From positions 2,418,001-2,482,000 of the forward strand of contig NZ_CP101153.1 in NCBI RefSeq assembly GCF_024298825.1: a DNA stretch of 64,000 nucleotides, given 5' to 3'. Of this stretch, positions 1,973 to 21,181 are shown one piece after another. A program made the translations under genes and the position numbers. The notes beneath the pieces were generated by a model. That model was not told the DNA's origin. It made no database searches and was given only the letters and a program-made list of their open reading frames with translations. The DNA comes from Haloglomus salinum. GTDB lineage: Archaea > Halobacteriota > Halobacteria > Halobacteriales > Haloarculaceae. How positions within the stretch are numbered: position 1 is the stretch's first letter; every line of letters starts with the position of its first letter.

Positions 1973-3940
1973 ATGTCCACCGATGAGCGCCGTGACCCGA
2001 ACGACGTGATCGAGGAGTACGAACAGCGGCTCGACGACGTGCTCGCGGAGGTCGAGCCAGCCCCGGACGACCGAGCAGCCGACGAGCCGGTGGTGTCGCT
2101 GGACCTGCCGGACCTGTCGCTGAACCGGCGGGACTTCATGAAGGCCGGCGCGGCCGCCGGCGCGATGGGGGCGCTGGCCGGCTGTTCGAACATCACTGGC
2201 GGCGGTGGCGGCGACGGCGGTGCGAGCGGCTCCGGCCCCGACCACAAGGTCGCGCCGGGCGAGCACGACGAGTACTACGGCTTCTGGTCGGGTGGTCACT
2301 CCGGCGAGCTCCGCGTCGTCGGCATCCCGTCGATGCGCGAGCTGACGCGTATCCCCGTGTTCAACACGGACTGTGCCACCGGCTACGGCTACACCGACGG
2401 CTCGAAGGAGCTGCTGGAGGAGGGCGGCGACTACACCTGGGGTGACAACCACCACCCGAACCTCTCGGAGACGGACGGCGATTACGACGGTGAGTACCTC
2501 TACGTCAACGACAAGGCGAACGGTCGCATCGCCCGGGTGAACCTGACGTACTTCGAGACGGACGCCATCACGGATGTCCCGAACATGCAGGCCATCCACG
2601 GCTGCTGTGTCCTCTCCCCGGACACGAAGTACGTCCTTGGGAACGGGGAGTTCCGGGCGCCCCTGCCCAACGACGGCCGCGACGTGGACAATCCGGACGC
2701 GTACACGTCGCTGTTCGTCGCGGTCGACCCGGAGTCGATGGAGACCCTGTGGCAGGTGAAGGTCGACGGGAACCTCGACATCGTCGACAGCGGCAAGGAG
2801 GGCCGCTGGGCCATCGCCTCCGCGTACAACAGCGAGGAGGCGACCAGTATCACCGGGATGACCAAGAACGACCGCGACGACGTGAAGGCGTTCGACATCC
2901 CGGCCATCGAACAGGCCGTCGAGAACGGCGACTACGAGGAGGTCAACGGCGTGCCGGTCGTCGACGGGACGAAGCAGAGCGCCCTCAACCAGGGGGACCG
3001 CCCCATCGTGAAGTACATCCCGACGCCGAAGAGCCCCCACTGCGTCGAGGTGGGGCCGAACGGGGACTACGCGTTCATCGCCGGAAAGCTCTCCCCGACG
3101 GTGACGATGCTGGATATCAACGCACTGAGCGAGGTTTCGGACCCGTCCGAGGCGGTCGCCGGGCGCCCCCGGGTCGGCCTCGGGCCGCTCCACACCACCT
3201 TCGACGGTAACGGCCATGCCTACACCTCGCTGTTCATCGACAGCCAGGTCGCCAAGTGGGACATCCAGGCCGCCGCCGAGGCCGAGACCGGCTCCGAGGA
3301 CCCGATCATCGAGAAGCAGGACGTCCACTACAACCCCGGCCACATCCAGGCGCTGGAGGCGATGTCGACCGACCCCGACGGGGAGTGGCTGGTCTGCCTC
3401 AACAAGCTGTCCAAGGACCGGTTCCTCCCGGTCGGGCCGACGATGCCGGATAACGACCAGCTCATCCACATCGGCCAGGGTGAGACGTCGATGGAGCTGG
3501 TGGCCGACCACCCGGCGTACCCGGAGCCCCACGACTGCGTCTTCGCCCACCGGGACAAGATCGACGCCAAGAAGGTCTACGACCCGGCCGACTACGAGGA
3601 GACGTACATCGAGGAGGCCGACTCCGGCGTCGAGCGCACCGGTGAGAACAGCGTCCACGTCAAGATGATCACCAAGCGCTCGGAGTTCGGCCTCCCGGAC
3701 TTCACGGTTCAGGAGGGCGACGAGGTGACGCTGACGACGACCAACATCGAGAGCGTGCAGGACATCGTCCACGGGGTCGCCATCCCCCAGTACGACATCA
3801 ACTACGCCGTGCCGCCCCAGGACACGGAAGCGGTGACGTTCACCGCCGATGAGCCCGGGGTCTACTGGATCTACTGCACGTTCTTCTGCTCGGCACTGCA
3901 CCTGGAGATGCGCAGCCGGATGCTCGTCGAGCCCGCCTGA
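1973..3940 (+). CDS. nosZ: Nitrous-oxide reductase NosZ
   Basis: 655 residues. This is the terminal denitrification enzyme, reducing N2O to N2 outside the membrane. A 50-residue acidic N-terminal extension precedes a Tat signal (LNRRDFMKAGAAAGAMGALAGC). The CuZ propeller region shows 'NHHPNLSETDGDYDG' followed by 'VNDKANGRIARV', and later histidines in 'KSPHCVEVGPNGDY', 'NPGHIQALEA' and 'YPEPHDCVF'. The C-terminal cupredoxin domain carries the binuclear CuA site in 'YCTFFCSALHLEM'. The Tat rather than Sec signal is the form usual in haloarchaea and their relatives. The gene starts one base after the halocyanin stop and is followed after 18 bp by a membrane protein and nosDFY. Confidence 0.97.
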   Translation: MSTDERRDPNDVIEEYEQRLDDVLAEVEPAPDDRAADEPVVSLDLPDLSLNRRDFMKAGAAAGAMGALAGCSNITGGGGGDGGASGSGPDHKVAPGEHDEYYGFWSGGHSGELRVVGIPSMRELTRIPVFNTDCATGYGYTDGSKELLEEGGDYTWGDNHHPNLSETDGDYDGEYLYVNDKANGRIARVNLTYFETDAITDVPNMQAIHGCCVLSPDTKYVLGNGEFRAPLPNDGRDVDNPDAYTSLFVAVDPESMETLWQVKVDGNLDIVDSGKEGRWAIASAYNSEEATSITGMTKNDRDDVKAFDIPAIEQAVENGDYEEVNGVPVVDGTKQSALNQGDRPIVKYIPTPKSPHCVEVGPNGDYAFIAGKLSPTVTMLDINALSEVSDPSEAVAGRPRVGLGPLHTTFDGNGHAYTSLFIDSQVAKWDIQAAAEAETGSEDPIIEKQDVHYNPGHIQALEAMSTDPDGEWLVCLNKLSKDRFLPVGPTMPDNDQLIHIGQGETSMELVADHPAYPEPHDCVFAHRDKIDAKKVYDPADYEETYIEEADSGVERTGENSVHVKMITKRSEFGLPDFTVQEGDEVTLTTTNIESVQDIVHGVAIPQYDINYAVPPQDTEAVTFTADEPGVYWIYCTFFCSALHLEMRSRMLVEPA

Positions 3941-18282: not shown

Positions 18283-19437
18283 TCAGTACGACGCGATGCC
18301 GGCGGCGATGCGGTCCAGGCCGGTCCGGAGGCGTTCCTTCGAAGCAGCGAAGGAGAGCCGGAGCCGTCCCTCGCCGGCGGTCCCGAAGCCGCTGCCCGGC
18401 GCGAGCACGACGCCGTGCTCCCGGAGGAGGTACTTCGCGAACGAGAGGGCGTCGGCGTCGACATCGGGGTCGAGGAACGCGTAGAACGCCCCCTCCGGAC
18501 GCGGCGCGGAGAGGCCGTCGATGTCGGCGATGCGGTCGACGACGAGGTCACGCCGCTCCGCGAACGCCTCGTACATCGCCTCGAACGGTTCCTGTGACCC
18601 GGTGAGCGCCTCGATGGCCGCCGCCTGGGCGACACTGGAGGGGCAGGCCGTCGTCGACTCGCGAACCTTCGTCACCTCGTCGATTACGGCCCGGTCGCCG
18701 GCGAGCCAGCCGAGGCGCCAGCCCGTCATCGCGTACGTCTTCGAACACGAGCCGACCGTGAGGACGTGCGGCGGGTGCCCGGTGAGTGCCGCGACGCCGC
18801 GCGGGTCGCGGTCGTAGGTCAACCCGGCGTACACCTCGTCGGCGATGACGTACGCCCCGCAGTCGGCGGCCGCCTCGACGACCGCCCGGATGGCCGCGGG
18901 CTCGAACACCCGCCCGGTCGGATTCGACGGCGTCGTGAGGACGACCGCCGCCGTCTCGGGACCCATCCGCTCGACCAGCCGGTCCGGGTCGAGGGCGAAC
19001 CCCGTCTCGGCGGGCATCGGGACCTCGACCGGCTGTCCGTCGGCCAGGAACGCCTGCGTCTCGTAGTTCGGCCACGCCGGCCCTGGATAGAGCAACTCCT
19101 CCCCCGGGCCGACGACCGCCATCGTCGCCAGGTGGAGCGCCTCCATCCCGCCGACCGTGACGACGATCTCGTCGATGGTATGCTCGACCCCGTAGTCGGC
19201 CGCCATCGCGTCCCGGATGGCCCGCCGGCACTCGGGGGTCCCCGCGTTCGGCGTGTAGTGGGTCGCGCCGTCCCGGGCCGCGGCCGCGGCGGCATCGATG
19301 ACGTGCTCGGGCGTGTCGAAGTCCGGCTCGCCGACCTCCAGCCGGACGAGGTCGCGGTCGGCCGCCTCCGCGAGGTCGTACATCACCCGTATCTGGGAGC
19401 GTGAGGCCCGCTGCACCCGCTCGGTCGGTTCGTGCAC
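18283..19437 (-). CDS. PLP-dependent class I/II aminotransferase
   Basis: 384 residues from a GTG start at 19437. Fold-type I motifs are present: 'RLEVGEPDFDTP', 'TPSNPTGRVF', 'YVIADEVYAGLTY', the Schiff-base lysine in 'SCSKTYAMTGWRLGW', and 'RLRLSFA'. It resembles the AspC/alanine aminotransferase subgroup; the amino-acid substrate is not determinable. The GTG is preferred over an ATG 69 bases upstream because a TTTACCC box lies about 25-30 bases before it, consistent with leaderless transcription, and because family members begin near this point. Confidence 0.9.
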   Translation of the reverse strand: MHEPTERVQRASRSQIRVMYDLAEAADRDLVRLEVGEPDFDTPEHVIDAAAAAARDGATHYTPNAGTPECRRAIRDAMAADYGVEHTIDEIVVTVGGMEALHLATMAVVGPGEELLYPGPAWPNYETQAFLADGQPVEVPMPAETGFALDPDRLVERMGPETAAVVLTTPSNPTGRVFEPAAIRAVVEAAADCGAYVIADEVYAGLTYDRDPRGVAALTGHPPHVLTVGSCSKTYAMTGWRLGWLAGDRAVIDEVTKVRESTTACPSSVAQAAAIEALTGSQEPFEAMYEAFAERRDLVVDRIADIDGLSAPRPEGAFYAFLDPDVDADALSFAKYLLREHGVVLAPGSGFGTAGEGRLRLSFAASKERLRTGLDRIAAGIASY

Positions 19438-19570
19438 GGGCGTGATTGGACGGGTGCGGGTAAAGGGTTGGTTCGTGGGGGAGAACTCCTCCCGGACTGG
19501 TGTCACGACGGTCGTGACGCCGGACTCACGATGCCGAATAACTCGGTAAAATGTGAAGTTAAAGAGTTAT

Positions 19571-19644
19571 AGTCCATCCTGGATTCGAACCAGGGTCGTT
19601 GCCCCCAGAAGGCAACAGGATTGGCCGATCTACCCCAATGGACT
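19571..19644 (-). tRNA. tRNA-Gln (anticodon CUG)
   Basis: On the minus strand the acceptor arms AGTCCAT and ATGGACT pair over seven bases. The D arm begins GGGTAGATCGG, and the anticodon stem TTGCC/GGCAA closes the loop TTCTGGG, giving anticodon CTG. The T arm CCTGG-TTCGAAT-CCAGG is perfect. The gene is 74 nt and carries no encoded CCA. It lies 70 bp downstream, on the same strand, of a gene for a double-HNH protein. Confidence 0.95.
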
Positions 19645-19714
19645 GCGTCTACAGACATCGCTAGCGGACATCGATATATGAGTGTTGCGGAGTCCCGTTA
19701 CTGGCTCCCGGTTC

Positions 19715-20506
19715 TCAGTGTTCATCGGGCGCTGGCGGTTCGTGATGTTCCCGCCGGTGGCAGTTCGCACAGAGGACGACGCAGCGGGCGATCTCCTCTC
19801 TGATTATCTCGTACGGTCGGTCGTTCGCCAGTAACCGGGCGACGGTCGTCCGCTTCGCTCCGTCGTGGTGGCAGTCGAGGGCCACCGGGTCGTCCTCGTC
19901 GCAGCGCCCACACCCACGGGTCGCCTTGTGGGCGTGGACCCAACCCCGCAGGCCGTCGGTTGCCGTGTCGTGATGCTCCCGCCGGTGACAGTTCGCGCAC
20001 AACACCTCGCAGGCGTCGAGTTCCTCCCGGAGCCGCTCCCGGCCGTGGCCGTGGGTGATGAGCTTCCCGACGGCGCGCTCCTTCGCGGCCGGGTCGGTGT
20101 GATGGAGGTCCAGACAGGCGGGGTCGTCTTCTGTGCATCGTCGGCAGCCGCGTTCCTCCTTCCGCTCGTTCACCCACGCCCGGTGCCGTGCGCGTCGCTT
20201 CAGGGTCAACTGGGCGTTCCGTTCGCGGTTCCGATAGTCCCAGCGCCGGTCGACCGACAGCTCAGCCCACTCTTCGTCGGTCACGTTCACATCGTCGGGC
20301 CTGGGGCCCACCCTGGACCCTGTGGAGGCGTTCGTTTCCAGGCCCGCTTGCTCCTTCGCCACGTTCCAGCCCCCGACCTGTCGGATGATCGTCGCCGACG
20401 CGGGCTGCAGTCCAAGCTCCTCGTATGCCGCTTTCGTCGGCGATTCCTCCAGTCGCTCGGCGGCCTCTCGTAGCGCGTCCAGGCACTCCTCCGGCGTCGT
20501 CGCCAT
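19715..20506 (-). CDS. Double-HNH nuclease-like protein with homing-endonuclease-associated repeat
   Basis: 263 residues. Residues 8-56 (ALREAAERLEESPTKAAYEE, then IIRQVGGWNVAKEQAGL) fit the homing-endonuclease-associated repeat. Two HNH zinc modules follow. The first has Cys121/Cys124, His135/His136 and Cys170/Cys173 (VLCANCHRREHH). The second has Cys199/Cys202, His213/His214 and Cys246/Cys249 with the same VLCANCHRREHH. The duplication within one chain is unusual. The N-terminal repeat probably binds DNA. It is located immediately upstream of tRNA-Gln on the same strand, which suggests a free-standing mobile or formerly mobile gene. The ATG at 20506 starts the repeat directly. Confidence 0.8.
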   Translation of the reverse strand: MATTPEECLDALREAAERLEESPTKAAYEELGLQPASATIIRQVGGWNVAKEQAGLETNASTGSRVGPRPDDVNVTDEEWAELSVDRRWDYRNRERNAQLTLKRRARHRAWVNERKEERGCRRCTEDDPACLDLHHTDPAAKERAVGKLITHGHGRERLREELDACEVLCANCHRREHHDTATDGLRGWVHAHKATRGCGRCDEDDPVALDCHHDGAKRTTVARLLANDRPYEIIREEIARCVVLCANCHRREHHEPPAPDEH

Positions 20507-20575
20507 GCCGTCGGTGCCCACGTCATCGGAGAAAAGTATCGGCCGACCGCCGCGGAACTAGAACGGGCGTTCAGG

Positions 20576-21181
20576 TCACTCCGTCCGCGCGAAGGCGAGC
20601 TGGCCGGAGATGTTCTCGATGTAGACATCGACCACGTCGCCCTCCTGGGTGCCGGGGACGAAGATGGTGTAGCCGCCGCGCTTGGCGACGCCGTCGCCCT
20701 TGCGGCCGGTGTCGGTGATCTCGACGGTGTAGCGGCCGCCCTTCTCGACGGCGTCGGCCTGCTGCTGGCTGGACGAGCGGCGCTTCGAGACCGGGCGGAA
20801 GGCACCACAGGCGTCACAGCGGAGCATCTGCGTGCCGTCCTCGTTCACGATGCGGGTGTCCGGCAGGCCACACTCCGAGCAGCGGACGTACTCCTCGATG
20901 TAGTCGGTGATGGCGGCGTCGAAGTCGGCGCCGTCGAAGCGGCCGTTGTAGCGGCCGACGCCCTCGCTGAGCTGGCCGGCCGTCGCGAGCGCGCGCTGGA
21001 CGAACGAGTGGACGTGCTCGGTCTCGCGGCTGAGCGCGTCGGCGACATCGTCGAGGTTGGTGAACCGGGTGAAGGCGCCGTCGGCCTGGCCCTCGGGGTC
21101 CGGGACGGAGAGGCGGGAGCTCTCCGCGCTCCGCTCGGGGAGCGCGTCGAGCGCTCTGGTGAGTGAGGCTTCGTAGTCCAT
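20576..21181 (-). CDS. Translation initiation factor aIF2 beta subunit with TRAM domain
   Basis: 201 residues. The central region carries 'RFTNLDDVADALSRETEHV' and 'RYNGRFDGADFDAAITDYIEEYV', then the zinc ribbon 'CSECGLPDTRI ... CDACGAFRPV', which is the aIF2-beta/eIF5 pattern. The C-terminal 60 residues ('GGRYTVEITDTGRKGDGVAK', 'GDVVDVYIENISGQLAFA') form a TRAM RNA-binding domain, a fusion known in haloarchaeal aIF2-beta. It acts in tRNA-Met delivery to the 30S subunit. It is divergent from mptD. Confidence 0.9.
   Translation of the reverse strand: MDYEASLTRALDALPERSAESSRLSVPDPEGQADGAFTRFTNLDDVADALSRETEHVHSFVQRALATAGQLSEGVGRYNGRFDGADFDAAITDYIEEYVRCSECGLPDTRIVNEDGTQMLRCDACGAFRPVSKRRSSSQQQADAVEKGGRYTVEITDTGRKGDGVAKRGGYTIFVPGTQEGDVVDVYIENISGQLAFARTE

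Follow-up and report, generated by a model that had tools for sequence, protein, structure and literature searches.

A putative HNH homing endonuclease gene anchored upstream of tRNA-Gln(CUG) in halobacterial chromosomes

A gene for a 263-residue protein with two HNH modules, found upstream of tRNA-Gln in the archaeon Haloglomus salinum, is quite probably a free-standing HNH homing endonuclease gene that is anchored at the tRNA-Gln(CUG) locus of archaeal chromosomes and whose product is presumed to cut DNA. It was identified in a stretch of 64,000 nucleotides of contig NZ_CP101153.1, referred to here as the window. Its position upstream of one tRNA in about one third of the haloarchaeal genomes examined, its absence from close relatives and the differences between sisters suggest a selfish gene for which the tRNA is the docking site. 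At the sequence level, comparison of the loci shows that the site is of a single type, that the gene was inserted in place, that empty alleles exist, that lineages are exchanged, that copies decay and that zinc residues are retained. The gene is thus a strongly patterned mobile gene of a known type in a new setting, that of archaeal chromosomes and a single tRNA gene.

Table 1. Features of the HNH gene and its surroundings (window coordinates).
Feature	Position	Strand	Basis or remark
HNH endonuclease gene, double-module, 263 aa (putative)	19715..20506	-	reading frame and profile matches
PF18780 homing-endonuclease-associated repeat, residues 5-57, predicted helical	20336..20494	-	Pfam match
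HNH module 1, C121 to H179	19970..20146	-	sequence motif, relatives, model
HNH module 2, C199 to H255	19742..19912	-	sequence motif, relatives, model
70-bp spacer including presumed tRNA promoter	19645..19714	-	CCGCAACACTCATAT also present in HNH-less G002 and G003
tRNA-Gln, anticodon CTG, presumed target or anchor gene	19570..19644	-	tRNA call
Left junction of insert	20507..20575	-	homology with HNH-less G002 stops at the upstream gene's stop codon (L001 versus L040)
Upstream neighbour, IF2-beta-like + TRAM protein	20576..21181	-	directly before tRNA-Gln in HNH-less G002 and G003
Downstream neighbour, class I/II aminotransferase	18283..19506	-	locus comparison

The gene is an intergenic reading frame of its own between the IF2-beta-like gene and tRNA-Gln, outside any intron or intein. 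A preliminary description had given its span as 19571-20506, the upper end of which coincides with the ATG at 20506 on the minus strand, but the lower end reaches into the tRNA; the stop codon lies at 19715. The same description had rightly placed the gene directly upstream of a tRNA gene: tRNA-Gln(CTG), which has one match in the window's genome, follows 70 bp downstream of the stop codon on the same strand. This tRNA has 75 nt, with two extra bases before GGCCAAT compared with most relatives, as is also the case in the sister species. The sister species carries a 96% identical HNH copy in the same place.

The proposed architecture of an N-terminal homing-type repeat followed by two HNH zinc modules with a shared VLCANCHRREHH was confirmed. 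The PF18780 match (34.2 bits) passes the Pfam cut-off of 26, and both modules can be read as C..C - D.HH - VLCANCHRREHH, each ending in VLCANCHRREHH. The match to the HNH family PF01844 (14.4 bits) is below the cut-off of 21.4, and phage HNH profiles match strongly over two stretches each (phrog_3106, E 4.8e-40; phrog_2255, E 4.3e-33). No GIY-YIG family was present among the Pfam matches at E up to 1. PF18780 occurs in many multi-repeat proteins and was therefore rejected as a tRNA marker on its own. A structure model built from six aligned sequences (mean pLDDT 83.8, pTM 0.60) predicts helices at residues 5-19, 25-31, 37-44 and 47-53 in the repeat, a long helix at 85-119 between the repeat and the modules, and two short strands and a helix (strand-strand-helix) in each module. 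Foldseek with this model gave nothing at E ≤ 0.001, a PDB sequence search returned only cytochromes (E 0.55 or worse), and there are weak structural matches to HNH folds (Gme HNH 4h9d, CBASS Cap5 8fmh) with Z scores of 2.4 for module 2 and 2.2 for module 1.

Relatives of the HNH protein (match at E ≤ 1e-5) were detected in 138 of 391 Halobacteria genomes, while the remaining 253, which include relatives of the same genus, yielded none with at most six candidates scored per genome. Rescoring of four HNH-less genomes gave one weak, repeat-only match (E 1.7e-4). A tRNA-Gln match is present in 384 of the 391 genomes. The survey of tRNA proximity for which the preliminary description had called gave a clear answer, in that 125 of the 138 genomes that have a relative show a same-strand tRNA-Gln(CTG) downstream of it. 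Of the 90 genomes of the first batch, 89 have this tRNA no more than about 400 bp away in the same orientation, the remaining one being G312. In that genome an insert of ∼1.7 kb, transposon-like by eye, lies between the HNH end at 1359 and tRNA-Gln at 3085 (L176). In the second batch the tRNA is adjacent in 32 of 35 genomes, comprising 30 found by default ARAGORN and two with an intron-bearing tRNA (G202 and G276). A third set, of 13 genomes with weak matches, adds three more: fragments adjoin tRNA-Gln(CTG) in G060 and G207 and the distance is 776 bp in G369, whereas ten have no tRNA-Gln near. The genomes left outside the 125, which also number 13 and include G297, hold weak or repeat-only matches. 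All six relatives found in a separate search of genome contigs have tRNA-Gln(CTG) just downstream. Placement upstream of tRNA-Gln(CTG) is thus the rule among Halobacteria carriers, and the homologues are not the randomly placed proteins with catalytic residues lost in both modules that would have spoken against the preliminary description.

Several individual loci differ in arrangement. Two HNH copies precede one tRNA-Gln in L048:1998-4829 (G330) and in L061, and in the former a 395-residue reading frame, restriction-like by eye, lies between them. A relative in G297 (L241:1290-1884) has lost a zinc cysteine (LCANSHR) and lies ∼90 bp after an intron-containing tRNA-Lys(TTT). PF18780-type proteins are located ∼160-320 bp after tRNA-Gly(CCC) in G254 (L244:1251-1947) and G050 (L253:1093-1946); both appear by eye to have an HNH-like C terminus. 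In L253 this part is read in a different frame and is followed by a further, odd call of tRNA-Gly(CCC).

Locus comparison indicates that the HNH gene is an insertion at the tRNA-Gln locus, with occupied and empty alleles in related genomes. In the HNH-less genomes G002 and G003 the IF2-beta-like gene directly precedes tRNA-Gln and only the insert is missing, and the sequences of G002 and of the window's genome become alike again some 50 bp short of the tRNA. An IMP cyclohydrolase-like gene takes the upstream position in many other genera, at occupied and empty loci alike (65 occupied, 33 other loci). The upstream flanks form 16 similarity clusters, of which 12 contain an occupied locus, and the HNH gene therefore precedes tRNA-Gln(CTG) in many neighbourhoods. 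An exact repeat of the tRNA of at least 10 bp, as expected of an attachment site, was not found upstream in nine loci.

The lineage that occupies a given locus also varies. On a tree of 87 HNH proteins the host families are strongly clustered and require 13 changes, the minimum being four, and a single genus (g19) includes empty loci along with HNH genes of three distinct lineages. Loci L012 and L101 have flanks that are 92% and 91% identical and a neighbour protein that is 98% identical, with HNH proteins at about 50-52%; the corresponding values for L028 and L100 are 93% and 97% for the flanks and 55% for HNH, and for L050 and L014 they are 91% and 98% and 73%. In 241 pairs the neighbours are 90% or more identical; HNH identity is below 65% in 74 of these and at least 80% in 23. 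These different lineages at one locus point to horizontal spread. There is a vertical component besides, as HNH distances correlate with neighbour-gene distances (r = 0.57), and much of the history of the gene would therefore be vertical or among close kin. Several copies carry stop codons, and in G092 a 27-residue remnant of the end of the gene is found before tRNA-Gln. The earlier suggestion of a free-standing mobile gene is accordingly well supported, since the site is of one fixed type, empty alleles have the neighbour found at occupied ones, lineages are swapped and copies decay.

It is unlikely that the gene is instead a host gene, vertically inherited and kept beside tRNA-Gln for a job in the cell, such as expression of that tRNA or DNA repair at this position. 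Such a gene would be expected to keep long open frames, which are seen in 87 of the 90 first-batch loci, to track the neighbour gene and to hold the same position in most flank clusters, as it does. However, it would not be expected to lack any match in so many genomes, including those of the same genus, to decay, or to belong to different lineages where close relatives share a locus.

Both forms of the protein, with one and with two modules, were found when homologues were surveyed for module number, as had also been suggested. The 87 proteins of at least 180 residues comprise 49 with two modules and 38 with one, split by length, and the single-module forms occupy the same tRNA-Gln site, so that two modules appear unnecessary for persistence there. 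CxxCH is present in every relative's module by construction, since modules were located by this motif, and the search expression missed the second module in two of the 49 two-module proteins. The remaining zinc pair, CxxC, and the last histidine (CxxCHxxxH) are kept in all 49 first modules and all 47 second modules, and [DEN]xHH in 47 of 49 and 36 of 47, respectively, the listed exceptions keeping HH and losing the acid. With these residues retained in both modules, the tandem form may cut both strands, as had been put forward. As judged from this conservation pattern, the two modules are not a chance repeat. On a module tree the second modules are essentially one group, with another second module as nearest neighbour for 46 of 47, and first and single modules interleave. 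This fits a single origin of the second module followed by repeated losses, which is the scenario that we favour, within the limits of a tree of 87 columns. One- and two-module enzymes at one site provide a natural series for testing what module 2 adds.

An altered anticodon stem of the tRNA is commoner in carriers than in non-carriers. The latter were represented by 80 of a random 120 HNH-less genomes, of which 76 gave one tRNA-Gln(CTG) and four gave none, using a pattern that would miss intron-bearing tRNA-Gln. The 90 first-batch carriers of this comparison include G001, which is near-identical to G000 and was not part of the class draw, and leave out L021. Two types of anticodon stem are common; others were seen in 30 of 90 first-batch carriers versus 4 of 76 non-carriers (Fisher p = 4.8e-6), and the difference persists on stratification by family (p = 0.0037, OR 5.1). 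The second batch, added late, contributes 30 carriers with a readable stem, seven of them altered, giving 37 of 120 versus 4 of 76 (stratified p = 0.0029, OR 4.9). Taken family by family, the difference in the first batch is no more than suggestive (p = 0.29 in f1, 0.15 in f3, 0.04 in f4 and 0.10 in f8). One of the four altered non-carriers is G092, the holder of the HNH remnant. The 15 stem types of the first batch comprise ten that are fully Watson-Crick, two with a G-T pair and three with a mismatch. The tRNA-Gln(CTG) directly after the HNH gene is interrupted by an anticodon-loop intron in two carriers (L215:1669-1774 in G202 and L222:1817-1932 in G276); these are the only such cases among 216 tRNA-Gln calls, a number that includes duplicates and an HNH-less set prone to miss introns. 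In G276 the 3' end of the tRNA-Gln and the bases that follow are repeated about 110 bp downstream (L222:1910-2070).

Other comparisons of the tRNA gave mixed results. T-stems other than CCCTG show no association, being present in 52 of 90 first-batch carriers versus 42 of 76 non-carriers, for which 34 of 76 were counted by eye. Once the neighbour gene was controlled for, tRNA allele and HNH lineage were uncorrelated over 65 loci (partial r = −0.02, p = 0.6). When nearest pairs whose upstream flanks share at least 85% identity are compared, the tRNA is less than 95% identical in 26 of 45 occupied-empty, 33 of 56 occupied-occupied and 1 of 11 empty-empty pairs, in which pairs repeat and the empty set is partly biased. 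This first empty-site set (L102-L141) was ranked by similarity to the window's tRNA and was used in the pair comparisons and not in the stem comparison. In Haloglomus the tRNA-Gln of G002 and G003 is 90% and 81% identical to that of the window over 64-70 bases, compared with 96% for tRNA-Arg(TCT). A control pattern for tRNA-Arg(TCT) matched in 39 of 80 genomes, and by eye the TCT matches share one stem except in two f2 genomes.

One possible interpretation, which we put forward tentatively, is that the nuclease recognizes the anticodon arm of tRNA-Gln(CUG) and that carriers are protected by paired, structure-preserving recoding or by an intron in the anticodon loop. Recoding as self-protection serves here as a working hypothesis. 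Ordinary stems are found in 83 of 120 carriers, and self-resistance would therefore be unexplained in these unless insertion itself breaks the site. The equal frequency of T-stem variants in carriers and non-carriers and the lack of correspondence between tRNA allele and HNH lineage also speak against a simple resistance model. If the interpretation is correct, the HNH gene and the recoded tRNA would act together as a natural gene drive, under which a tRNA that is otherwise conserved is made to evolve rapidly. The altered stems and the two introns would also be in keeping with a toxin or defence nuclease that cuts the tRNA-Gln RNA and for which the adjoining tRNA allele is the resistant antidote. 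We regard this as very improbable, however, given the carriers with ordinary stems and the several different tRNAs that adjoin viral relatives. HNH modules of this type are DNases in characterized relatives. No anticodon-nuclease family was present among the family-profile matches, and an immunity or anticodon-related role, as mooted in the preliminary description, is unsupported by any good match to a defence family, the sole PADLOC match at E up to 1 being a type IV restriction model (E 0.0035, 15.1 bits).

Relatives of the HNH protein also occur in phages, where tblastn matched parts of the protein in 159 records, always less than 80% of its length; plasmid matches are distant, and a scan of viral contigs revealed no relative. 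A same-strand tRNA lies within 50 bp downstream in eight of 14 viral and plasmid records examined and not in the other six, which suggests that members of the wider family are often attached to tRNA genes. In HCTV-16, KIL4, S-RIM50, Hena1 and PHB09 the HNH stop codon (TAG or TAA) is formed by nucleotides 8-10 of the tRNA. The phages in which the stop lies inside the tRNA number five, from four host genera (L142, L145, L195, L198 and L201). Such overlap was not seen in the first-batch chromosomal copies, in which the stop codon and the tRNA are at least 23 bp apart. The HNH gene may plausibly have come from, or been carried by, viruses. That the gene is a leftover of an integrated virus or element with the tRNA gene as attachment site is scarcely credible, since, despite the relatives beside tRNA genes in haloviruses, the insert is a single gene 5' of the tRNA with continuous flanks and without the upstream tRNA repeat sought in nine loci.

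The reading as a homing endonuclease gene leads us to propose the following mechanism. Occupied and empty tRNA-Gln(CUG) loci would meet in one cell after mating or gene transfer, or through polyploidy. The enzyme would bind the empty locus via its N-terminal repeat domain and cut at or near the tRNA gene, and repair templated by the occupied copy would put the HNH gene after the upstream neighbour but ahead of the presumed promoter of the tRNA, so that the tRNA would stay functional. Later, HNH copies would be swapped for other lineages, decay and be lost. In this scheme we infer DNA cutting, the position of the cut, recombination as the means of spread and the escape of the host locus from its own nuclease.

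Links between homing nucleases and tRNA genes have been described in phages. A search of titles and abstracts, which covered few subscription papers, found nothing on chromosomal, tRNA-anchored HNH genes in archaea and no paper on a homing nuclease that keeps to one tRNA gene in the chromosomes of an archaeal class. Should homing be borne out, the system would be a natural gene drive amenable to study in archaea with workable genetics, and could be used to learn whether selfish nucleases cause tRNA sequences to change.

Among known systems, the HNH genes in the tRNA arrays of phages HCTV-16, HGTV-1, KIL4, S-RIM50, Hena1 and PHB09 resemble the gene described here in having a similar HNH module directly 5' of a same-strand tRNA, but the matches cover the HNH part without the PF18780 repeat and the tRNAs are various. 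The genes for F-TflI, F-TflII and F-TflIV of phage T5 are located by tRNA genes. These proteins are site-specific endonucleases of the phage genome, as cited in PMC3326045; they are phage genes, and the likeness to the HNH gene is by description only. The Mob and Seg endonucleases of T-even phages are likewise agents of intronless homing, and co-conversion of flanking sequence has been described for free-standing endonucleases of these phages (PMC2988022). Unlike the gene described here, their listed targets are mostly protein genes, and activity has been reported for several. SegB of T4 and T6 is the nearest functional analogue. It is free-standing and located among tRNA genes, is reported to break DNA within them, and has relatives that co-localize with tRNAs (PMC13096335). 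The two thus have in common a free-standing, tRNA-associated gene, whereas SegB is a GIY-YIG enzyme of phages for which the available account reports no tRNA isotype preference, and the gene described here encodes an HNH protein of archaeal chromosomes that is nearly always found at one isoacceptor.
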